NCBI GenBank assembly: GCA_023406965.1
Contig: JAEXTI010000574.1
Location: 1-14,853, forward strand
Source of the DNA: Chloroflexota bacterium
GTDB lineage: Bacteria; Chloroflexota; Anaerolineae; Anaerolineales; Anaerolineaceae
Direction: 5' to 3'
DNA length: 14,853 bases
The position numbers and the translations under genes were made by a program. Below the pieces are notes generated by a model, which was given only the letters and a program-made list of their open reading frames with translations, was not told the DNA's origin and did not search any database. Shown here piece by piece: positions 3,904-14,853 of this stretch (positions are counted from its first letter, which is position 1; each line of letters begins with the position of its first letter).

Positions 3904-5310
3904 TTGGCCATCGCCGGCATTGCGCTGGGCGTCTTCATGGCCACCCTCGACACCAGCATCGTCAACATTTCGCTGCCCACGCTGGTAACCTATTTTCATA
4001 CCGACTTCGCGACCATCCAGTGGGTGGTCCTGGCTTACAGCCTCGTAATCACATCGCTCATGCTCAGCGTCGCCCGCCTGGGCGATATGCTGCCCAAGAA
4101 GCGCATCTACCAGACCGGCCTGGTCCTGTTCATTCTCAGTTCTTGCCTGTGTGGACTGGCTCCCTCGGTGGGCTGGCTCATCGCCTTTCGCGCCTTGCAA
4201 GGCCTGGGCGGCACCATGATGCAGGCGCTTGGCATGGCCATGGTCACCGAGATATTCCCCGCCAGCGAGCGCGGCCGGGCTCTGGGAACAATGGGCGCTG
4301 TGGTGTCGGTAGGCATCGCCGTAGGGCCGCCCCTGGGAGGCCTGCTCATCGGCCTCGTCGGTTGGCAGTCGGTATTCTGGGTCAACCTGCCTGTCGGGCT
4401 CATCACCGCTTTCTTCGTCTGGCGCTTCGTACCCGACCTGCGTTCCGCTCGCCCCGGTCAGCGCTTTGACGTGGCCGGCGCCGCCATCCTCATGGCGGTG
4501 CTCATCACCTACGCCAGTGGCATGACCCGAGGCCAGAGCATTGGCTTCTCATCGCCATGGGTGTTAGCCTTGCTCATCGCCGCCGGGTTGGGCCTGCTCG
4601 TTTTCCTGGCTGTTGAGCGCAAAGCCGCTCAGCCTATGGTCGACCTAAAGCTGTTCGCCAATCCGCTCTTCTCCATCAACCTGCTCATGGGTTTCCTGGT
4701 GTTCCTGGTCCTGGCCGGCGGATTCATCCTGCCCTTCCTGCTCCAAAATGTGCTTGGATATTCCACGCAGGTTGTCGGTTTGTTGATGATGTCCAACCCC
4801 ATCGCTATGGGTCTGGTCGCGCCCATCGCCGGAACGCTCTCCGATCGCTACGGCTCGCGGGTCATCAGCCTGATCGGCCTGCTGTTGTTGGCGGTTGGCT
4901 GCCTGGTCATGAGCACCCTGCACACTGGGGTCACTCCGCTGGGGATTGTGGTCCGCCTGATTCCATTTGGCATCGGCTTTGGCCTGTTCCAGTCGCCCAA
5001 CAACAGTTCCATCATGGGCTCCGCCCCGCGCGAGCGGCTGGGCGTGGCCTCGGGGCTAATTGGGCTGTCGCGAACGCTGGGTAACTCCTCTGGTTTGCCG
5101 CTCATGGGCAGCATCTACGGCGCTTTCGTCCTGGCAGCGGGCAAGTTACCCGCCGGCACCGACGTGAACACTGCCCCGGCGCAAGCGGTAGTATCCGGCA
5201 TCCAGGGAACCTATATCATAGCCGCCGCGGGCATTTTCATCACCACCCTGCTGGCCGTGCTGGCGTTGTGGGTAGACACCCGCCGTAAAGCCCGCCAAAC
5301 CTCGCGGTAG
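3904..5310 (+). CDS. DHA2-type MFS drug:H+ antiporter (EmrB/QacA-like)
   Basis: A membrane transporter of the 14-helix DHA2 branch of the major facilitator superfamily, which exports lipophilic or cationic drugs using the proton gradient. Signatures: FMATLDTSIVNISLPTL (11-27) with the membrane-embedded Asp of motif D1; RLGDMLPKKRIYQTG (58-72), motif A between helices 2 and 3; FRALQGLGGTMMQA (95-108), motif B; and GIAVGPPLGG (137-146), the antiporter motif C. The rest is alternating hydrophobic segments to about residue 458, ending in a basic tail. At 468 residues it is slightly short for the family (470-510). No in-frame ATG lies at the N-terminus. TTG 3904 has no ribosome site, whereas the frame stays open back to 3859 and would allow ATT at 3862, nine bases after GAGG (3849-3852). 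That alternative adds 14 residues and overlaps the methyltransferase stop. The start is therefore uncertain; the family is not. Confidence 0.9.
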   Translation: MAIAGIALGVFMATLDTSIVNISLPTLVTYFHTDFATIQWVVLAYSLVITSLMLSVARLGDMLPKKRIYQTGLVLFILSSCLCGLAPSVGWLIAFRALQGLGGTMMQALGMAMVTEIFPASERGRALGTMGAVVSVGIAVGPPLGGLLIGLVGWQSVFWVNLPVGLITAFFVWRFVPDLRSARPGQRFDVAGAAILMAVLITYASGMTRGQSIGFSSPWVLALLIAAGLGLLVFLAVERKAAQPMVDLKLFANPLFSINLLMGFLVFLVLAGGFILPFLLQNVLGYSTQVVGLLMMSNPIAMGLVAPIAGTLSDRYGSRVISLIGLLLLAVGCLVMSTLHTGVTPLGIVVRLIPFGIGFGLFQSPNNSSIMGSAPRERLGVASGLIGLSRTLGNSSGLPLMGSIYGAFVLAAGKLPAGTDVNTAPAQAVVSGIQGTYIIAAAGIFITTLLAVLALWVDTRRKARQTSR

Positions 5311-5425: not shown

Positions 5426-5494
5426 GTAGGGGTCGGGTCTCCCGACCCGGCGTGGGTCAACCACGTCCTGGGCGCGGTAAGCGCGCGCCTACCG
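5426..5494. repeat. Palindromic repeat unit B (69 bp), three successive hairpins
   Basis: The best-preserved unit. Hairpin 1 is GGGTCGGG / CCCGACCC (5430-5437 and 5441-5448, TCT loop, perfect). Hairpin 2 is CGTGG / CCACG (5451-5455 and 5461-5465, GTCAA loop, perfect). Hairpin 3 is the GGCGCG / CGCGCC stem within 5470-5489, imperfect. The unit starts GTAGGGG and ends CCTACCG. It lies between two genes read in the same direction, like REP/BIME elements of enterobacteria or small MITEs, but it belongs to neither family by sequence. Confidence 0.8.
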
Positions 5495-5497
5495 CCT

Positions 5498-5521
5498 GTA
5501 GGGGTCGGGTTTCCCGACCCG
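5498..5521. repeat. Palindromic repeat unit C, left hairpin only
   Basis: A 24-base truncated copy identical to the first 24 bases of unit B except for one loop base. The stem GGGTCGGG / CCCGACCC (5502-5509 and 5513-5520) is perfect around TTT. It follows unit B after three bases. The promoter of the next operon begins 25 bases downstream. Confidence 0.75.
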
Positions 5522-5579: not shown

Positions 5580-5981
5580 ATGCTAACCAACCGTTCTCGC
5601 ACCATCCTGATTGTTGGCGACATCCTGGCTATCCTTGCCGTCAGTGTCATTGGTTACCTGATGCATTACGCCGGAAAGGAAGCCTTCAGCCTGCGCTGGC
5701 TGAGCACTTTTCTGCCCTTTTGCCTGGGCTGGGCCCTGAACGCCCCCTTCCTGGAGCTCTATCAAGCCGGAACTGCCGACCGCATCGGGCAAGTTTGGTG
5801 GCGCGCCATCCTGGCGGCCTTCCTGGCAGCCCCCTTCGCCGCCTGGCTGCGCGGATTGTGGCTCAGCGCCGCCATCATCCCTGTTTTTGTCACGGTGCTA
5901 GGCGCCACATCGGCCCTGGGCATGGTTCTCTGGCGCGCTGCCTGGGCAGCTTTCGCCGGGCGGAAGACAGCGCATGGATGA
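5580..5981 (+). CDS. DUF3054-family membrane protein
   Basis: A 133-residue integral membrane protein of unknown function that matches the DUF3054 pattern. It has about four membrane helices (roughly 7-27, 38-58, 75-93 and 97-119), the characteristic GDILAIL stretch in helix 1 (13-19) and a WWRAILAAFLAAPFAAWLRG segment at 73-92. Length is normal (110-135). It is the first gene of a four-gene operon and its last eight bases overlap the start of the ECF sigma factor (ATGGATGA), which suggests coupled translation. The ATG lies directly at the predicted transcription start. No enzyme motif is visible. Its steady position ahead of a sigma/anti-sigma pair might mean that it takes part in sensing at the membrane, but that is a guess. 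Confidence 0.8.
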   Translation: MLTNRSRTILIVGDILAILAVSVIGYLMHYAGKEAFSLRWLSTFLPFCLGWALNAPFLELYQAGTADRIGQVWWRAILAAFLAAPFAAWLRGLWLSAAIIPVFVTVLGATSALGMVLWRAAWAAFAGRKTAHG

Positions 5982-6582
5982 GATTGCCCTGGTAGAATTC
6001 GCCCAAAAAGGCGACCTGGATGCGTTCAACCGCCTGGTGCTGGCCCACCAGGACCTGGCCTTCAACGTCGCCATGCGCATGCTTGGCGACTCAGATACCG
6101 CCGAGGATGCCGTTCAAACGGCCTTCATTTCGGCCTACCGGCACCTGGCCGATTTTCGCGGGGGCTCTTTTAAGGCCTGGGTCATGCGCATGGTCACCAA
6201 TGCCTGTTATGACGAACTGCGCCGCCGTCAACGCCGCCCTTCCGTGCCCCTCGAACCCCTTACCGATGATGATGAAGAGATCGAATCCCCTTCCTGGCTG
6301 GCAGACGACGCGGCCTCGCCGGAAGAACAGTTGGAGCGCGCTGAACTCGACCAGGCTTTACAGGCTTGCTTGCAGCGCCTGGAGGACGATTTCCGCGCCG
6401 TGGTGGTCATGGTGGATATCGAAGGCCTCGATTATCTCGAAGCCGCTGCCATCATCGGCAAGCCGCTCGGCACGGTTAAGAGTCGCGTGGCGCGCGCCCG
6501 CTTAAAACTGCGCGAATGCCTGCACCGGTTCTGGGAACTTTTCCCCCAACCTGTCCGTCTAAATGAGGAGAGGGAACCGTGA
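5974..6582 (+). CDS. ECF-type RNA polymerase sigma factor (sigma-70 family)
   Basis: A 202-residue group 4 sigma factor that would direct RNA polymerase to a stress or envelope regulon. Region sigma-2 spans about 17-87: LVLAHQDLAFNVAMRMLGD, the core-binding AEDAVQTAFISAYRHL (43-58), and FRGGSFKAWVMRMVTNACYD (61-80), which contacts the -10 element. An acidic linker (DDDEEIESPSWLADDAASPEE, 98-118) follows. Region sigma-4 (about 125-180) has the helix-turn-helix LDYLEAAAIIGKPLGTVKSRVARAR for -35 recognition. Regions 1.1 and 3 are absent, as usual for the group. The start overlaps the DUF3054 gene by eight bases. The stop overlaps the next gene's GTG by four bases, the standard sigma/anti-sigma arrangement. 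The regulon and inducing signal cannot be read from the sequence. Confidence 0.94.
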   Translation: MDEIALVEFAQKGDLDAFNRLVLAHQDLAFNVAMRMLGDSDTAEDAVQTAFISAYRHLADFRGGSFKAWVMRMVTNACYDELRRRQRRPSVPLEPLTDDDEEIESPSWLADDAASPEEQLERAELDQALQACLQRLEDDFRAVVVMVDIEGLDYLEAAAIIGKPLGTVKSRVARARLKLRECLHRFWELFPQPVRLNEEREP

Positions 6583-7436
6583 ACACAAATTTAACGTTAC
6601 GAGATCAAGAACTTTTATCGGCCTACCTGGACGGGCAGCTCACGGATGCTGAACGCAAGTCTGTAGAGCAAAACCTGGACACCCGCGGGGAATGGCGCCT
6701 GACGCTGGATGAGTTAGATCAAACTCGCCGGGTACTGCGCCGCGCCCCCCGTTACCGTGCTCCGCGCAGCTTTGCCTTGACCCCCGAAATGGCCAAACAG
6801 GCCCGCCGTTCCTTCCTCACCAATCTGATCGGCCTGCGCGTCTCAGCGGCCATGGCCACCCTGGCGCTTGTTGTTGCCCTGGTCATGCAGGGCTCGCCTC
6901 TCCTTGCCAATCAAGGCGCATCTCCTATGCTTAATGCCGCCCCCGCCATGCAAGAGGACGCCGCTGCCGGGGCAGTTGCGATGGAGGCCGAACCGGTCGA
7001 AAAATCGGCAGCCGAAGCCACCCCCATGATCATCACCTGGGGCGAACCCGGTGTTTATGGCGCCCCCAGTGGTATGGGTGGGATGGGCGGAGGTGGCTCG
7101 GATACTGCCCCGATGGACCTGGCCGCCCCAGCCGCGCCCAAAGTTCCAGGCGTGGAATCGGGCCCTGCTGAAGAAGCCCCCGCAACTCAAGAACGCAGCG
7201 CTGCTGAAAGTGAAACAGCCGTCGAAGGCAGCGGCCCAATCCTGGGCGTTCCCTCCGGCGAAACCGCCGGACAAATCCTGAGCACTTCGGAAGAAGCACA
7301 GGCGTATACCCAAGAAGACTTTCAATCAGCGCCAAAGGGCCTGATTGCCCTGCGCAGCGTACAACTTGGATTGATACTGCTCGCCGTCGTCAGCGCCGTG
7401 GCTGCCTTCTTGTTTGCCCGGCGGCGGTCTGCGTGA
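6579..7436 (+). CDS. Putative transmembrane anti-sigma factor without zinc motif
   Basis: A 285-residue protein that probably holds the upstream ECF sigma factor at the membrane. The N-terminal 60 residues (DQELLSAYLDGQLTDAERKSVEQNL, 9-33, then a basic helix) match the anti-sigma domain start seen in zf-HC2/RsgI-like proteins. The H-x3-C-x2-C zinc ligands are absent: the protein has no cysteine there. A membrane helix follows (about 84-106), then about 150 residues rich in Ala, Pro, Glu, Gly and Met with GMGGMGGGG (165-173). A second membrane helix lies near the C-terminus (257-279) and ends in RRRSA. This predicts a cytoplasmic head, an outward-facing flexible loop and a short cytoplasmic tail. 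The start is GTG 6579 within GTGA, after GAGGAG (6565-6570). Anti-sigma role is inferred from position plus the N-terminal pattern. Confidence 0.75.
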   Translation: MNTNLTLRDQELLSAYLDGQLTDAERKSVEQNLDTRGEWRLTLDELDQTRRVLRRAPRYRAPRSFALTPEMAKQARRSFLTNLIGLRVSAAMATLALVVALVMQGSPLLANQGASPMLNAAPAMQEDAAAGAVAMEAEPVEKSAAEATPMIITWGEPGVYGAPSGMGGMGGGGSDTAPMDLAAPAAPKVPGVESGPAEEAPATQERSAAESETAVEGSGPILGVPSGETAGQILSTSEEAQAYTQEDFQSAPKGLIALRSVQLGLILLAVVSAVAAFLFARRRSA

Positions 7437-7962: not shown

Positions 7963-10290
7963 CTACTTCCGCAAACTATCTTTGCGCAGGGACTCGAGGG
8001 CAGTCTTATACTCTTCTACGTTGGTGGGGCGCAGGGCGATGATGGTCTCCATCATATTAATCGCCTCCAAATGCTTCCCCTGATCCAGATAAGCCCCCGC
8101 CACTACGTCTAACTGCGTCACAGCCTCTTGCACCTGCCCGCCGCGCGCATACAAATCCGCCAGCCGCTTGCGCAGAGCCAAATTGGTGCCGTGCTCCACC
8201 AGGAGATCATTCAAGAATTCGATCCCCATCTCTCGCCGGCCCGAGGATTCAGCCAGTTGCAAGAAGGCATCTACCTCGCCTAAAGCCACAGCGTCCTGCC
8301 CCAAACGCAAATTGAGCAGCACGATCTGTGATCGCACCGCGATATTGTCGGGTTGGATCGTGCGAATCTGCTCGTAGATCCGCACAGCCTGGCGCAGGTT
8401 CAAGCGCTGCAGGTCAATATCCGCCACCTTCATCAGAATGTCCACGCCCCAGGTGCGGTTATCCTGCGATTTCTGAGCTAAAGTAAGGGCGGTCAGATAT
8501 GTCTGGCGCGCCTTATCCAGCTCCGCCAGGCGGTAATACATTTCCGCCAGGTCCATATACTCGGTTAGAGCCGCGTCCACCTTGCCTTGGGATACCAGCA
8601 AGGTGATCAAGCGCTCGCGCACTCGCAAATCCATGGGCGCAACGGTTAAAATGCGCTTCAAACTGCGTACAGCCCGGCCCGTCTCGCCGCGCACTGATTG
8701 GAGGTCGGCTACCAGCATGAACTTTCGCACTGCTTCATCGATGTGCTGCTCTTGAAGCAGCATTTCACCGATCTGCACATGCAAGGGCAGGTACGTGGGC
8801 GCAAACTGCAAAGCGAAGAAGGCCTCCTCCATCGCGGTGCGAGTCATTCCGCGCGTGGCCAGTGTGCGCACAGAAGCCATTGCCTCCACCACCTGGCTGC
8901 CGCGAGATTCGATGATCATCTCTGCCACCGGCTGTAGGGGCGCGCCTTCCGGCACTGCGCCCATTTGCTGGCGGGCCATCAGCAAATATTGCTGCCACCC
9001 CGGGCGATTGATCTGATTTGCCACAGTGGCGCAAATATTCTTCAAAATTTCTTCGTCCGTCTCGCTCGACTGCGCGTCAATTAACGGTTCGTAAGCCTGG
9101 CGCAGTTCTTCAGCCCGGTTCGGGTCAACCACTGCCGAATCGGCCAGGCTGAGGGCCTGCATGTATGCCGTCGCAGCCTCGTTGAGCGCGCCGCTCTGCT
9201 GGCTCAACTGCCCAATCAGCAGGTTGCATGCCAGGTCGTAATCGGGATGACGCTGCGCTTCCTGCAAGTAGCGCAGAGCCCGGTCATTATCACGGCCCTG
9301 GGTTAAGAGTCCCAAAATAAAGTACGCGGTGGGATTGCGCAAGCCCAAATCCAGAGCCCGCTCCAACTCTTTGGCCGCCTGGCTCTCATCATTTTGCGTC
9401 AACGAGTCGATGGCCTGCCCCACGTGCAACACGATTCGCGAGCGGTCATGCCCCGCGCGCAAAGTGCCGGTATCCCCGCGCGTCAGCGCGCCCAGCCCGC
9501 GGCGGGCTGTGGGGTTTTCGTTGACCTCGTCGCCCTGGTCAAAGAGCAGCCCAGCCAGCAGCACCATCGCCTTCTGGCGGGCTTCCTCCACCGGGTCGGA
9601 CTGCTTTTTTCCATCTTCGTCTTCTTGTCCCAAAGATTTCACGCTGGCCATGCGCACGGGGCCCGTCCCGCCTTTGGGGCGAGCAGGTTTGGGCAGCATC
9701 TGATTCGAGCGCAGCGTAGAAAGCGCAAAACGAGCATCCTGGCTTTCGGGCATCATTTGAGAGGCATATTCCACCGCTTTCAACGCGCGCGTCAGGTCAC
9801 CGTTGCGCTGGAAAATACTGGCCGTCGCGATGTATTCAACCACCGCTTCGGCGCGTTTTCCGGTCTTCTCGTAAACCGCTGCCAGCCGCTGGCGGGTGGA
9901 TAGATGATCGGGGTTCAGGCTGAGCACATGCTGCCAGTTGTCGATGGCTTTATCCACATCGCGGCCCTTGAGGTGCAGCTCGGCAGCGCGCAAGGAAGAC
10001 TCCATGGCCTCTTTGAGTTTGCCCATGCGCTCAAAAATGCGGGCCAGCTTCTCTTGCGGCACTGGGTCGGCAGGCGCCAGATTGGTCGCCTGAAGATAAC
10101 ACTCCAGCGAGTTCTCGTAATCTTGTAACTCAAAATAAGCCAGTCCAAGGCTAGAAAGCGCTTGCGGGTTGTCGGGGAATTCTTCCAGCGCAGCCCGGTA
10201 AAATTTCGCCGCTTCCTTCCAATCCTGGTCCCAGGCTGCGGAGTGGCCCTGGTTCATCGCTTTTTGGTATGCTTGTTGATTTGCTGCCAT
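7963..10290 (-). CDS. Large soluble tetratricopeptide-repeat protein
   Basis: A 775-residue protein made mostly of tetratricopeptide repeats, which form a curved helical scaffold for binding other proteins. No signal peptide or membrane helix is seen, so it is probably cytoplasmic. Clear repeats begin at once: DWKEAAKFYRAALEEFPDN (23-41), LGLAYFELQDYENSLECYLQ (48-67), IFERMGKLKEAMESSLRAAE (84-103), AIDNWQHVLSLNPDHLSTRQ (115-134) and AAVYEKTGKRAEAVVEYIAT (137-156). A charged, probably flexible insert lies at about 200-245 (PARPKGGTGPVRMASVKSL, then EDEDGKKQSDP). Weaker repeats continue to the C-terminus. Start ATG 10290 lies 39 bases after the polA stop with only a weak purine run (GGGATGAG) before it, so it is probably read through from the polA transcript. 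No enzymatic domain is recognised. Confidence 0.85.
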   Translation of the reverse strand: MAANQQAYQKAMNQGHSAAWDQDWKEAAKFYRAALEEFPDNPQALSSLGLAYFELQDYENSLECYLQATNLAPADPVPQEKLARIFERMGKLKEAMESSLRAAELHLKGRDVDKAIDNWQHVLSLNPDHLSTRQRLAAVYEKTGKRAEAVVEYIATASIFQRNGDLTRALKAVEYASQMMPESQDARFALSTLRSNQMLPKPARPKGGTGPVRMASVKSLGQEDEDGKKQSDPVEEARQKAMVLLAGLLFDQGDEVNENPTARRGLGALTRGDTGTLRAGHDRSRIVLHVGQAIDSLTQNDESQAAKELERALDLGLRNPTAYFILGLLTQGRDNDRALRYLQEAQRHPDYDLACNLLIGQLSQQSGALNEAATAYMQALSLADSAVVDPNRAEELRQAYEPLIDAQSSETDEEILKNICATVANQINRPGWQQYLLMARQQMGAVPEGAPLQPVAEMIIESRGSQVVEAMASVRTLATRGMTRTAMEEAFFALQFAPTYLPLHVQIGEMLLQEQHIDEAVRKFMLVADLQSVRGETGRAVRSLKRILTVAPMDLRVRERLITLLVSQGKVDAALTEYMDLAEMYYRLAELDKARQTYLTALTLAQKSQDNRTWGVDILMKVADIDLQRLNLRQAVRIYEQIRTIQPDNIAVRSQIVLLNLRLGQDAVALGEVDAFLQLAESSGRREMGIEFLNDLLVEHGTNLALRKRLADLYARGGQVQEAVTQLDVVAGAYLDQGKHLEAINMMETIIALRPTNVEEYKTALESLRKDSLRK

Positions 10291-10329: not shown

Positions 10330-13155
10330 CTAGGGTAATACCGTTAACTCACCCCAACGATCGCCCGCCCGGGCTTCGGTCTCCAATGGAATGGAAAGCA
10401 GGTAAGCTCCCTCCATCACCTTCTGCACCAACCGGGCCGTTTCCATCAATTCCTCATCCGGCACTTCCAGCACCAATTCGTCGTGCACCTGCAACAGCAG
10501 CCTGGCCCGGCTGCGCGCCTTATCCAGCGCGTCGGGCAGGCGGATCATGGCCAGCTTGACAATGTCGGCGGCAGTGCCCTGGATGGGCGCGTTGATGGCC
10601 TCGCGCTCCTCGCGCCCGCGCAAGGCCGGGTTCGAGCCACTGGCCAGGTTGGGGAAGTAACGCCGCCTGCCCAGCAGGGTTTCCACATACCCCTGGCGGG
10701 CAGCCAGGGCGCGAGTCTCGTCTAAATAACGCTTGACGCCGGGGAACTTCTGGAAGTAAGCCTTCACAAAATCTTCCGCTTCGGCCAGGGTCAACTCGGT
10801 GGAGCGGCTCAAGCCGAAAGCGCTCATGCCGTAAATCAGGCCGAAGTTGATGGCCTTGGCGTGGCGGCGCATGGACTTATCGACCTGCGCCAGCGGCACG
10901 CCGTACACCGCCGCGGCGGTGGTGGCGTGAATGTCCTGCCCAGCCCGGAAGGCCGCCAGCATAGCCTCGTCCTGGGCGGCGTGGGCCACAATGCGCAGTT
11001 CGATCTGCGAGTAGTCGATGGAGAGCAGCTTCCAGCCGGGTTGGGCGATGAAGCCGTTACGCACCTGCCGCCCCAGTTCGGTGCGGGTGGGAATGTTCTG
11101 CAAGTTGGGGTTCGAGGAGGCCAAGCGCCCCGTCACCGAGCCGGTCTGGTTGAAGGAGGTGTGCACCCGCCCGCTGAAAGGCGCAATCTGCTGCGGCAGC
11201 GCATCCACGTAGGTGGAGCGCAGCTTGGCCAACTCGCGGTTTTCCAGGATCAAGTCGACCACGGGGTGCTTGCCGCGCAGTTCTTCCAGCACGTCCGCCG
11301 AGGTGGAAAAATGCCCACTGGCGGTCTTCTTGCGGCGGTCGGGCGGCTCGAGCCGCAGCGTGCCAAACAGCACGTCTGAAAGCTGCTGGGTGGAGTTGAT
11401 GTTGAAGGACTTGCCCACCAGCGCATACACTTCCTTTTCAATCTCCGCCAGCCGCGTGCTGAGCATGTCGTTCATCTTGGTGAAGAAGGGCAGGTCCAGC
11501 AAAATGCCGTTCCATTCCATCTCCGCCAGCACCGCTACCAGCGGCATTTCCAGCTCCACAAACAGGCGATCCGCGCCGGTCTTGGCCATGCCTTTCTCTA
11601 ACAAGGGCTTGAGGCGCAAGGTCACCTCCGCGTCGGCAGCCGCATAGGGGGCCACCTCCGCCACAGTCACCTCGGCCATGCTGCGCTGGGACTTGCCCTT
11701 ACCGATCAACTCCTCGATGTGCGTCATGCGCTCACCCAGGTAAACCTCGGCCATGTCTTTCAGGCCCAGGTTATGCGAGCTGGGGTCGATCAACCACTCG
11801 GCGATCATGGTATCAAAGGCCAACCCATCCACATTGAGGCCGCATTTGCGCAGCATGAGCACATCATATTTCAGGTTCTGGCCCACTTTGGGCTTGCGCG
11901 GGTCGCCCATCACCGGGCTCAGCGCATCCAGCACCTGCTGCATGGGCAGTTGGGTCTCGCCGGTGCGGTGCCCCACGGGGATGTAGTAGCCCTCGCCGGG
12001 TTTGACCGCCAGTGAGATGCCGACCAGGTCAGCCAGCAGCGGGTCGGTGGAGGTGGATTCGGTATCAAAGGCCACCGCTTCGGCGCCTTCCAGGGCTTTC
12101 ACCAGGGCAGCCAGCTTTTCGGGGCTGTCCACCACCTGTACATCCACCTGGTAACCGGGGGCCGTGCCCACCCGCTCGACTGCCGGTTCGCCGCCGGCGG
12201 CAGGAGACTCAAACAAAGACAACTGCCCTCCAGGGCCGGATTTTGGCGTCGCAGCCGGGGCGGGCGTGGAGGGCAGCCCGAACACCTTGCGCAGGCGCTC
12301 CCATAGGGTGCGGAACTCCAACTGCTTGAACAGCGCTTCCAACTGCTCGATGTTTTGCTGCCCCACGCGAGCTTTGGCCAAATCCAGGGTAATCTCCAGG
12401 TCGGTGCGGATCAAGGCCAGTCTCTGGCTCAGATAAGCCGACTCGCGGCCCGCTTCCAAACGAGTCTTCACCCGGGCGGGCAGCTCGTCGAGGTGGGCAT
12501 AGATTTGATCCAGGGTGTCGTAGGTCTCCAGCAGAGAGATGGCCGTCTTCTCGCCCACCCCGCTTACGCCGGGGATGTTATCGGAGGTGTCGCCCACCAG
12601 GGCCTTGTAATCTACGACCTGATCGGGCCGCACGCCCAGGTAGCTCTTCACCTGCTCGGGCAGGTAATCCTGGGCTTCGGCGAGCTTGCTGCCCGCCAGG
12701 TTCACCATCACCCGCTCGTTGACCAGTTGCAGCAGGTCGCGGTCGCCGGTGATGATCTTGACCCCCAGGCCTTCCTTTACCGCCTGCACGGCGATGCTGC
12801 CGAGGATGTCATCGGCCTCGTAGCCTTCCAGTTCCAGGCGCGGAATGCCAAAGGCGTCCACCATCTCGCGGATGCGCACCATCTGCGTGCGCAGGTCGTC
12901 GGGCATTTTTTCCCGGGTAGCCTTGTACGCCGGGAAATACTCGTCGCGGAAGGAGTGGCCCCCGTCGAAGGCTACAGCCAGATAATCCGGCTTCTCCTGT
13001 TCCAACAGGCGCAGCAGCACGCTGGTGAAGCCAAACACCCCCGCGGTGGGCTCGCCATCCGCAGTAGAAAAGCGCGTACCGCTGCCTGCCGTGAGGGCAA
13101 AGAAGGTGCGGTATGCCAGGGCGTGTCCGTCGATTAGAAAAAGCGTAGGCGGCAT
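10330..13155 (-). CDS. polA: DNA polymerase I with intact proofreading site
   Basis: A 941-residue DNA polymerase I that fills gaps and removes RNA primers. Domain 1 (about 1-290) is the 5' nuclease: LFLIDGHALAYR, VAFDGG, EGYEADDILG, TGDRDLLQL and GDTSDNIPGVSGVGEKTA. Domain 2 (about 335-520) is the 3'-5' exonuclease. All four metal-binding carboxylates appear present: Asp364 and Glu366 in AFDTES, Asp431 in NLKYD and Asp508 in YAAADAEVT. Domain 3 is the polymerase: motif A LLSIDYSQIELR (Asp714), motif B RRHAKAINFGLIYGMSAFGL (Lys767, Phe771, Tyr775) and motif C QVHDELV (Asp892). The start is ATG 13155 (MPPTLFLIDG), matching where family members begin. The frame runs open 29 codons further upstream, but those residues lie inside the preceding gene. 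That gene's stop is seven bases away, so the two are translationally linked. Confidence 0.97.
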   Translation of the reverse strand: MPPTLFLIDGHALAYRTFFALTAGSGTRFSTADGEPTAGVFGFTSVLLRLLEQEKPDYLAVAFDGGHSFRDEYFPAYKATREKMPDDLRTQMVRIREMVDAFGIPRLELEGYEADDILGSIAVQAVKEGLGVKIITGDRDLLQLVNERVMVNLAGSKLAEAQDYLPEQVKSYLGVRPDQVVDYKALVGDTSDNIPGVSGVGEKTAISLLETYDTLDQIYAHLDELPARVKTRLEAGRESAYLSQRLALIRTDLEITLDLAKARVGQQNIEQLEALFKQLEFRTLWERLRKVFGLPSTPAPAATPKSGPGGQLSLFESPAAGGEPAVERVGTAPGYQVDVQVVDSPEKLAALVKALEGAEAVAFDTESTSTDPLLADLVGISLAVKPGEGYYIPVGHRTGETQLPMQQVLDALSPVMGDPRKPKVGQNLKYDVLMLRKCGLNVDGLAFDTMIAEWLIDPSSHNLGLKDMAEVYLGERMTHIEELIGKGKSQRSMAEVTVAEVAPYAAADAEVTLRLKPLLEKGMAKTGADRLFVELEMPLVAVLAEMEWNGILLDLPFFTKMNDMLSTRLAEIEKEVYALVGKSFNINSTQQLSDVLFGTLRLEPPDRRKKTASGHFSTSADVLEELRGKHPVVDLILENRELAKLRSTYVDALPQQIAPFSGRVHTSFNQTGSVTGRLASSNPNLQNIPTRTELGRQVRNGFIAQPGWKLLSIDYSQIELRIVAHAAQDEAMLAAFRAGQDIHATTAAAVYGVPLAQVDKSMRRHAKAINFGLIYGMSAFGLSRSTELTLAEAEDFVKAYFQKFPGVKRYLDETRALAARQGYVETLLGRRRYFPNLASGSNPALRGREEREAINAPIQGTAADIVKLAMIRLPDALDKARSRARLLLQVHDELVLEVPDEELMETARLVQKVMEGAYLLSIPLETEARAGDRWGELTVLP

Positions 13156-13162
13156 AAGTCTC

Positions 13163-14853
13163 TCATGGTTTGCGCGGTTCGTTGAGTGAAGGAACGCCCC
13201 CCTGCGGCAGCCGGGTGATTCCCTGGCGGCGGCGGGTTTCAACGATGAACTCTCGCAGCAGCTTGGCCGCAGGAGGCTGGGCCCCGCTGATAATCAAATA
13301 TCCGCTGGCCCAAAAATCATCCGAGGGGTTCTCTTCGCGAATGCGCTCAAAAGCGTTGAACAGGTAATGCGAGGTGCGCTGGCGGATGACCTTGACCACG
13401 TTGGCCGGGGAAACCGACGGCGCGACCTGCACCATCCACTGCAAGTATTCGGGCCGGATGGCGATGCCTTCCAGCCGCCAGCCAAAGGCCAGGCACAACT
13501 GCTGCACCCACTGCCCCACCCGCTCGCCAATCTCGCGGGTCAGGTAATGCTGCGGCAGGCGCGGGATCAACACGCAGGTGTAGTAAATCTGGCTGACCCC
13601 CGCCGAAGCGGGGTCGAGCTGGTTCAAGGAGGTGGGGGGCGTGAGTACCTGGGCATCGCCGGCTGGAGCCAGTTCTGCGGGGCCTTCTTCGCCTTCCTCG
13701 AGCATCACAAAACGTCCCTCGGTAGTTCCTGTTTGCACAGGCTGGGTTGTTTCAAGCTGCGGACTTTCGAGCTGTGCCCAGGAGGGAACCGTGGGTTGAG
13801 TTTGATCTGGGTCCCAGAAGCGGTCCGCTTCCCCGCTTTGCGGGTCGGGATCGGGAATGGAACCGAGGAGGGCTTCGAGATCCAGGTTTTGCAGTTGTGC
13901 TTCCAGGGCATCGTCCAATTCGCCCACAGATTCCATTTCCACCGGCTCCACCGGCCTGGATTTGCCGTTCAATGGTTCGGCCGAATCTTCGACATACCAA
14001 CGGTCTTCGTCCGCCACAGGAGGGCTCTTGACCGGAAGGGCCGCTTCATCTTTGGAAGCGCGTTGGGCCAGGTCCTGAATCAGCTTGCCCACCTGGTTGC
14101 GCACCTTGCTGAAAGGCGTCTTGGCGCTGAAGACCATGCCCAGCACCTGGTCGCCTTCCAGGGTAATCAGATACAACTGGCAGTCGCCGTCGTCGATGGG
14201 CAGGCGCACAAAACGCACCACCTCGCCGCGCTCGCCCTTCTGCCAGTAGCTTTGCAATTGTTCGGTTAGCTCGCGGGCTACGTCCGCTGCGGCAGGCCCG
14301 GCTTGATAGGCCCCCCGCCCGCGCGCCATCCACAGGCCCGCCAGGGCGTTGGTTTTCTCCAACAGGTTCGCAAACGCCGAATCGCTGCCCTCGACCGGCA
14401 GGCCGGGTTTCGCTTCGGCCGGTGGCTCGACGTCTTGAACCGGAGCCGGGGCCTGGGCCGCGGGGACTGCCGGTTCCGGCGCCAGGTCGGGGGCCGCGGG
14501 CGCATCCTCCACCGCCTGGGCCACCAGGTCCAGCAGGTCGGGCAGGTAAAACGGGCGCGCCAGCATGCCGCTCAACGGCAGCGCGGAGAAGGCATCGCTG
14601 GGGCTGCCTTCTGAGGGCGGCACCCCAAACACTTTCAAGCCCTGCTGGGCCTGTTGAGCCAGCAGCGCGAAAGGTAAATCCTGCAGGTCACCGTCCACGA
14701 TGGCCAGCGTGAAAGCATTCAGGTTAAGCTGCTGCTCCGCGGCAACTCCACTGGCAACCACCTGGACGCGGTAGCGCCGGGTCTCTTCCAGACTCAAGCG
14801 AATCAGCTCGCCAAAGGGGGTATGGGCCGTTGCAACCAGTATGGAATAAGCCA
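13163..14853 (-). CDS. Composite protein: degenerate receiver + Roadblock-like + inactivated Y1-transposase-like domain
   Basis: Unknown function. The frame is open to the right edge. The last visible bases form ?TG followed by AYSILVATAHTPFGEL, so the start is probably an ATG one base outside, giving 563 residues (numbering used here). Residues 3-116 follow a response-regulator receiver: ILVATAHTPFGELIRLSLEE replaces the usual acidic pair by Ala-Thr, LAIVDGDL keeps an Asp (54), and LARPFYLPDLLDLV has Arg for the KPF lysine. After a Pro/Ala linker, 162-264 resembles Roadblock/LC7. An acidic, probably disordered stretch (265-415) follows. Residues 421-544 match the IS200/IS605 Y1 transposase pattern (IYYTCVLIPRLPQHYLTREI, AFGWRLEGIAIRPEYLQWMV, VVKVIRQRTSHYLF, DDFWASGY, LLREFIVETRRRQG). 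There the HUH motif reads Tyr-Leu-Gln (470-472) and the catalytic Tyr is Phe536. It is the first gene of the polA-TPR operon. Domain calls are by eye. Confidence 0.7.
   Translation of the reverse strand, partial: AYSILVATAHTPFGELIRLSLEETRRYRVQVVASGVAAEQQLNLNAFTLAIVDGDLQDLPFALLAQQAQQGLKVFGVPPSEGSPSDAFSALPLSGMLARPFYLPDLLDLVAQAVEDAPAAPDLAPEPAVPAAQAPAPVQDVEPPAEAKPGLPVEGSDSAFANLLEKTNALAGLWMARGRGAYQAGPAAADVARELTEQLQSYWQKGERGEVVRFVRLPIDDGDCQLYLITLEGDQVLGMVFSAKTPFSKVRNQVGKLIQDLAQRASKDEAALPVKSPPVADEDRWYVEDSAEPLNGKSRPVEPVEMESVGELDDALEAQLQNLDLEALLGSIPDPDPQSGEADRFWDPDQTQPTVPSWAQLESPQLETTQPVQTGTTEGRFVMLEEGEEGPAELAPAGDAQVLTPPTSLNQLDPASAGVSQIYYTCVLIPRLPQHYLTREIGERVGQWVQQLCLAFGWRLEGIAIRPEYLQWMVQVAPSVSPANVVKVIRQRTSHYLFNAFERIREENPSDDFWASGYLIISGAQPPAAKLLREFIVETRRRQGITRLPQGGVPSLNEPRKP

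Follow-up and report, generated by a model that had tools for sequence, protein, structure and literature searches.

Predicted receiver, Roadblock and catalytically dead Y1 transposase domains in one conserved protein encoded next to polA in Chloroflexota

Introduction

What place would a transposase domain without its catalytic residues have in a protein encoded directly upstream of DNA polymerase I? The question is raised by one end of a 14,853-nucleotide stretch of Chloroflexota DNA (family Anaerolineaceae; GenBank assembly GCA_023406965.1, contig JAEXTI010000574.1), the whole of which was analyzed and is referred to here as the window. A preliminary description of this DNA had read the product of the gene upstream of polA as a receiver domain without its acidic pocket, a Roadblock/LC7-like middle and a Y1 (HUH) transposase domain with a lost active site, and had taken it to be a maintained, non-catalytic regulator. 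That interpretation is supported by the profile searches, structure predictions, alignments and gene neighborhoods presented here.

Results

The gene under study and the domains of its product are the following.

13163..14853, minus strand: gene encoding the receiver-Roadblock-Y1 protein, of which 562 residues can be read; the window end interrupts the start codon
14498..14851, minus strand: receiver domain, residues 1-118; Asp53 present, Thr8-Ala9 in place of the acidic pair, Arg99 at the Lys position
14042..14383, minus strand: Roadblock/LC7 domain, residues 157-270, from structure prediction
13598..14041, minus strand: linker, residues 271-418, disordered over most of its length in the model (pLDDT mostly under 55)
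13217..13597, minus strand: Y1 (HUH) transposase domain, catalytically dead, residues 419-545, from Pfam, NCBIfam and Foldseek; dN/dS 0.009 in one pair
13439..13447, minus strand: former HUH motif, now Tyr469-Leu470-Gln471, from alignment
13247..13249, minus strand: former position of the nucleophilic Tyr, now Phe535 (Phe536 counting Met), from alignment

The frame is intact, as had been described: it is open on the minus strand over 13163-14851, encodes 562 residues plus a Met whose codon is represented in the window by TG alone, and stops 7 bases ahead of the polA ATG at 13155. The nearest named relative of the window gene is a full-length homologue, 90% identical at the protein level, from a MAG labelled Anaerolineaceae (class Anaerolineae, phylum Chloroflexota). 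This homologue, in L001, reads MAYSILVATAHT; it has 560 residues, and its gene likewise stands immediately before polA, with the same 7-base gap. A protein scan of the genome contigs recovered a single locus, and the related genome G001 holds one full-length copy of the fused gene and no second full-length copy. The observation of a fused receiver-Roadblock-Y1 gene is confirmed.

PF01797 (Y1_Tnp) matched residues 419-526 at 1.5e-13 (51.3 bits; cut-off, 23), and the NCBIfam IS200 model matched at 5e-15 (55.8 bits; cut-off, 55); at E values up to 1, Pfam returned nothing else for the window protein. The Y1_Tnp match recurred in all 73 members of an alignment built from the window protein and 72 of the 120 homologues among the matches listed (alignment A1). 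When the C-terminal part of the model was compared with the PDB using Foldseek, the first 29 rows were all transposases (ISDra2, IS200, IS608, S. tokodaii and DR_0177; best E value, 7.9e-9), in line with the Y1 transposase fold that had been claimed. Since Pfam is blind to the Roadblock domain (PF03259 matched 1 of the 73 members, at an E value of 0.08, and 0 of 10 in another set of relatives), its presence was settled by a separate structure model. The Roadblock fold is present in that model, with MglB as the best match, and the prediction bears out the earlier reading of the middle region over residues 157-270.

The receiver fold is likewise present in the window protein by structure prediction, and its pocket proved to be partly degenerate. 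Among the 73 aligned rows from the matches listed, no acidic residue was found at position 8 or 9, and the Lys position was occupied by Lys in 39 and Arg in 31. The phospho-acceptor Asp53, however, is present in 72 of the 73, the remaining row having a gap. The earlier claim of a receiver without its acidic pocket thus stands for the acidic pair and not for the phospho-acceptor. Relatives that lack the Y1 domain have mostly retained one acidic residue at strand 1 of the receiver, and the phospho-acceptor Asp is missing, as judged by eye, in some deep-branch members (L132, L146 and L148). The mostly disordered linker contains a short P-x-P-x-P segment (residues 333-337) whose three prolines, P333, P335 and P337, are at least 90% conserved in the same 73 rows. 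Separately, the linkers of four long-branch members (L145, L096, L132 and L079) share a segment resembling LAxEEPPMPxxEDSGTVxDL, a possible short binding motif. By prediction and homology, these data show three folds, receiver, Roadblock and Y1, in one protein.

The residues assigned earlier to the two catalytic elements were correct: Tyr469-Leu470-Gln471 replaces HUH, and Phe535 replaces the nucleophile. In addition, the Gln normally found four residues after the nucleophilic Tyr is Thr539 in the window protein. Because both the metal pair and the nucleophile are absent, catalysis by the window protein is very unlikely, as judged from its residues. The same positions were inspected in 121 rows, comprising the window protein and the 120 homologues listed of 202 that passed the cut. 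Among these matches listed, a complete His-His-Tyr triad occurred in 0 of 121; HxH was found in two, P0114 and P0119, both reading H-L-H with Phe at the Tyr position, a single His together with Tyr in three, a single His without Tyr in one and no His in 115. Tyr469 was present in 103 and Gln471 in 112 of the 121, and the nucleophile position held Tyr in 72, Phe in 48 and a gap in one. In a second set, drawn from whole genomes, HxH was found in 0 of 28 fused rows versus 25 of 29 stand-alone Y1 rows, and the nucleophilic Tyr in 13 of 28 versus 28 of 29, the stand-alone rows including one dead paralogue, L038. The homologues are thus not intact transposases, and degeneracy throughout the family holds for the complete triad and for the HUH motif of the 28 fused rows. 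It does not hold position by position: absence of HUH residues from every homologue was rejected, since H-L-H survives in two and a single His in four others, and Tyr persists in the 72 rows.

The replacements differ between branches, with Tyr-Leu-Gln in that of the window and Phe-Ile-Tyr, Tyr-Val-Ser, His-Val-Gln, Phe-Ile-His and others in deep branches. Parts of the motif survive in P0114/P0119 and P0095, whose branches lie close to the base of the window clade, so the loss looks stepwise or repeated; the tree that places them omitted three long branches (L024, L166 and L204) besides duplicate or truncated loci. In the window clade the substitutes are conserved in their own right, a pattern more easily explained by re-use of the site than by drift.

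The dead Y1 domain is the best conserved part of the fused protein. In 69 more distant members, the median identity to the window protein was 62% for Y1, 38% for the receiver (68 of the 69) and 30% for Roadblock. Thirteen of the 18 invariant columns in the 73 rows from the matches listed lie within the Y1 domain, and its invariant residues include Arg431, Trp458, Arg490, Trp514, Arg540 and Gln543. For the single pair formed by the window and L001, dN/dS (Nei-Gojobori, own script) was 0.110 over the whole gene, 0.092 in the receiver, 0.038 in Roadblock, 0.495 and 0.134 in the first and second linkers and 0.009 in the Y1 domain. Other genes of the same pair gave 0.057 (polA), 0.049 (TPR gene) and 0.019 (sigma factor). 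The dead Y1 domain is therefore under strong purifying selection in this pair.

To count relatives, frame length was used as the separator of fused and stand-alone Y1 frames, because score fails: the fused frames of G134, G195 and G108 score below the best stand-alone one. Only a limited number of first-look candidates was scored, so the numbers of genomes given here are minima. Fused frames of 376-1039 residues were found in at least 22 of 199 genomes of the class draw (16-row Y1 profile), in several deep branches, and in at least 29 of 400 genomes of the phylum draw. At least 40 sampled genomes hold an open-frame relative, 37 of them with receiver, Roadblock and Y1 in one frame; in G131 and G224 the fused frame lacks the receiver, and the stretch examined in G084 (L194) shows Roadblock and Y1 only. 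Stand-alone dead Y1 paralogues, in frames of 144-231 residues, occur in at least five genomes: G652 (L227-L229), G638 (L230), G524 (L231), G537 (L232) and G028 (L233). G652 has four, two of them close together at L229.

In a tree of Y1 domains, from which 20 loci were left out as duplicates or truncated, all fused rows fell on one side of a 97/93 branch, with the dead stand-alone paralogue L038 among them. Because the tree contains long branches, a single origin of the fused Y1 domain is suggestive only. The main clades matched in a receiver-plus-Roadblock tree, where 13 Y1-less proteins grouped together and one, L025, stood beside the window clade; this tree may be read as one gain of Y1 and one loss, or as an ancient gain and two losses. 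Several public records list relatives as 'REP element-mobilizing transposase RayT', as 'transposase' or as a response regulator, so the family is in databases already, without a name of its own in those records. One of its members, P0022, is an Anaerolinea entry.

Downstream of the fused gene, two further genes follow on the same strand.

10330..13155, minus strand: polA, DNA polymerase I with 5'-3' exonuclease, 3'-5' exonuclease and polymerase domains, from Pfam
7963..10290, minus strand: TPR protein of 775 residues, after polA; also in L001; dN/dS 0.049

The link to polA recurs in the Chloroflexota sampled. Of 40 genomes, 30 have polA downstream of the fused gene, in the same orientation and no more than about 505 bases away, and the number rises to 32 at a limit of 1.7 kb, a count that omits L023 (same genome as L212); in the other 8 of 40 there is none in the sequence examined, which for L235 covers only 664 bases. 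By a rough estimate, chance would place a same-strand gene within 1.7 kb of polA about once per several thousand genomes. Shared descent inflates the count; the link nonetheless recurs in separate deep branches, where polA (N-terminal part compared) stands at about 43-48% to that of the window, yet the adjacency is again on the same strand. In the reverse view, a receiver or Roadblock relative was found on the same strand within 3.5 kb in 13 of 80 polA-upstream regions, which were hand-picked among the matches listed with the polA start present and ten window-clade fusion genomes excluded; 7 of the 80 comprise under 700 bases upstream. The 8 of 40 genomes and the 13 of 80 regions together indicate that the pairing is not obligatory. 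The Y1 domain as the reason for the link was rejected: polA is next in 6 of 12 Y1-less relatives as well, in some with small overlaps, so the link is not attributable to Y1. At the stand-alone Y1 loci L149-L178, polA was found in 0 of 30, with flanks of up to 1.5 kb. Elsewhere in the window, at 5974-7436 on the strand opposite polA, lie two overlapping genes, one for a sigma factor of the sigma-70 type (ECF-like) and one with a match to zf-HC2 (anti-sigma-like). A defence system was considered and rejected, there being no PADLOC match at E 0.1.

The features that bear on a ligand point in two directions. Arg or Lys is conserved at 431, 459, 487, 490 and 540 of the window-clade Y1 domain and the W of the W motif is kept in 28 of 28 fused rows, both of which point toward a nucleic-acid ligand. 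The mean net charge, on the other hand, is 0.75 in fused (n = 28) versus 5.9 in stand-alone Y1 domains (n = 29) and falls to -12 in deep branches, arguing against simple retention of DNA binding. On these grounds, nucleic-acid binding in the window clade is about evenly balanced between yes and no, and in the deep branches a protein partner appears more likely, because the Y1 domain there is mostly neutral to acidic.

REP-like hairpins may be the ligand of the Y1 domain. The window ends before the upstream region of its own fused gene, and the palindromes flanking the gene were read from L001. There, a 153-base tandem repeat of 2.5 copies (L001:7538-7914) lies just 5' of the gene's ATG and contains hairpins such as GCGGGAAnnnATTCCCGC. 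The core palindrome of this repeat has only 10 occurrences in G001, of which three fall inside the repeat itself; in the window, the palindrome is found at 1142-1159, and there are 7 matches with up to 3 mismatches versus 1.03 expected. A different set of GC-rich, REP-like palindromes, about 72 bases apart, is located at window 5430-5520, between the frame 3904-5310 and a DUF3054 gene, and similar ones are found at L001:17452-17618.

Discussion

We consider it probable that the fused gene encodes a host scaffold or regulator linked to Pol I, in which a pseudo-receiver and a Roadblock domain are joined to a Y1 domain that has been domesticated and is catalytically dead. TnpA Y1 domains dimerise. 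According to this model, a Y1 transposase domain would have been captured once and its cleavage activity then lost, the dead domain being kept as a non-catalytic dimerising module that would present the rebuilt active-site surface to a ligand. Such strict conservation of the fold is most simply explained by a role in binding or dimerisation. The Roadblock domain would add a second dimer or partner surface. In the window clade, the conserved Arg and Lys residues make structured nucleic acid a plausible ligand. The protein would be co-made with Pol I and most likely would act with Pol I or control its level or placement. The parts of the earlier interpretation that called the protein non-catalytic and maintained hold up (no complete triad among the matches listed; the Y1 dN/dS of one pair); that it is a regulator we infer. 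A more specific version is tentative and rather doubtful: throughout the group, the inactivated HUH domain would recognise the substrate or structure for a receiver-Roadblock scaffold, which would place or tune Pol I at structured single strands. If true, bacterial signalling and replication/repair would have incorporated an HUH pseudoenzyme.

MglB, a Roadblock protein, works together with a Ras-like GTPase as a scaffold for polarity or motility. The alternative that we take most seriously, while holding it unlikely, is that the adjacency to polA reflects conserved gene order only and that the fused protein works elsewhere, for example as such a scaffold. The best structural match of its Roadblock domain, the 8 genomes without polA after the gene in the sequence examined and the absence of the gene from most of the 80 polA-upstream regions are all consistent with this. 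Gene order by itself, however, sits less well with an adjacency that recurs on the same strand in deep branches despite the divergence of polA, and with the 7-base gap in the window and L001 and the small overlaps in some Y1-less relatives.

Less probable again is that the dead Y1 domain binds its own mRNA or a promoter hairpin and so autoregulates the polA operon, the receiver and Roadblock domains acting as the sensor. This would suit a gene directly upstream of polA, with a palindrome-bearing tandem repeat just 5' of it in L001. Against it, the window stops short of its own upstream region, the core palindrome is confined to 10 places in G001, three in the repeat, and the deep-branch Y1 domains are acidic.

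We regard as highly improbable that the protein is still an active single-stranded DNA transposase or RAYT using substitute residues. Among the matches listed, the nucleophilic Tyr in 72 rows, H-L-H in two homologues and one His with Tyr in three might suggest residual activity, but in no row do all three residues occur together and the window protein has none of them; the Phe-for-Tyr replacement is the one introduced in the ISDra2 Y132F complex (2xo6 title), and G001 has no second full-length copy. A decaying insertion-sequence copy fused by chance, which the lost catalytic residues might have indicated, is refuted by open-frame relatives in 40 genomes, the Y1 dN/dS of 0.009 and the Y1_Tnp match in all 73 aligned members.

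The preferred reading, a Pol I-linked scaffold or regulator, sets the protein apart from known systems. It shares with IS200/IS605 TnpA (PF01797, NF033573) the fold of residues 419-545 and the conserved W of the W motif; unlike TnpA, it has neither HUH nor the nucleophilic Tyr, has Thr539 in place of Gln, is fused to two signalling-type domains and has one full-length copy in G001. With MglB and other bacterial Roadblock/LC7 proteins it has the fold of residues 157-270 in common, here within a three-domain protein. TldR proteins derive from inactivated TnpB, a nuclease, and not from Y1 TnpA, and are not known to carry receiver or Roadblock domains. Described as RNA-guided transcription factors (PMC13418256), they offer a precedent for an IS200/IS605-type protein kept as a regulator. 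RAYT (TnpA-REP) proteins are likewise Y1 proteins outside insertion sequences (PMC6006769, available text), whereas the window family is without an intact catalytic core. The extra domains described for RAYTs in that text lie inside or after the core, and none is a receiver or Roadblock domain. In the same portion of the paper, Quentin et al. 2018 retained 722 of 924 sequences for the Y1 classes, those having both HuH and Y motifs, and suggested that sequences without core motifs are non-functional; the words 'receiver' and 'response regulator' do not appear there, and Chloroflexi appears once, in a figure note (PMC6006769). Aspartate-Less Receiver domains, as presented in the accessible part of PMC4395418, also have a degenerate pocket, but the receiver described here has lost the acidic pair and retains its phospho-acceptor Asp. 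The preliminary description knew of no family with this architecture, and the literature searched, with thin coverage of subscription papers, likewise contained no description of the receiver-Roadblock-Y1 layout.

The HUH and Tyr motifs are the marks by which Y1 transposases are recognised, and sequences lacking them were set aside in the family-wide survey (PMC6006769, available text). The dead Y1 domain described here is, in one pair, more strictly conserved than the neighboring Pol I. The layout suggests signalling to replication or repair and makes the protein a candidate partner of Pol I, and it offers a testable route to uses of the transposase fold without its chemistry. In some Chloroflexota, a former part of a parasite appears to have been turned into a conserved, non-cutting piece of host machinery.
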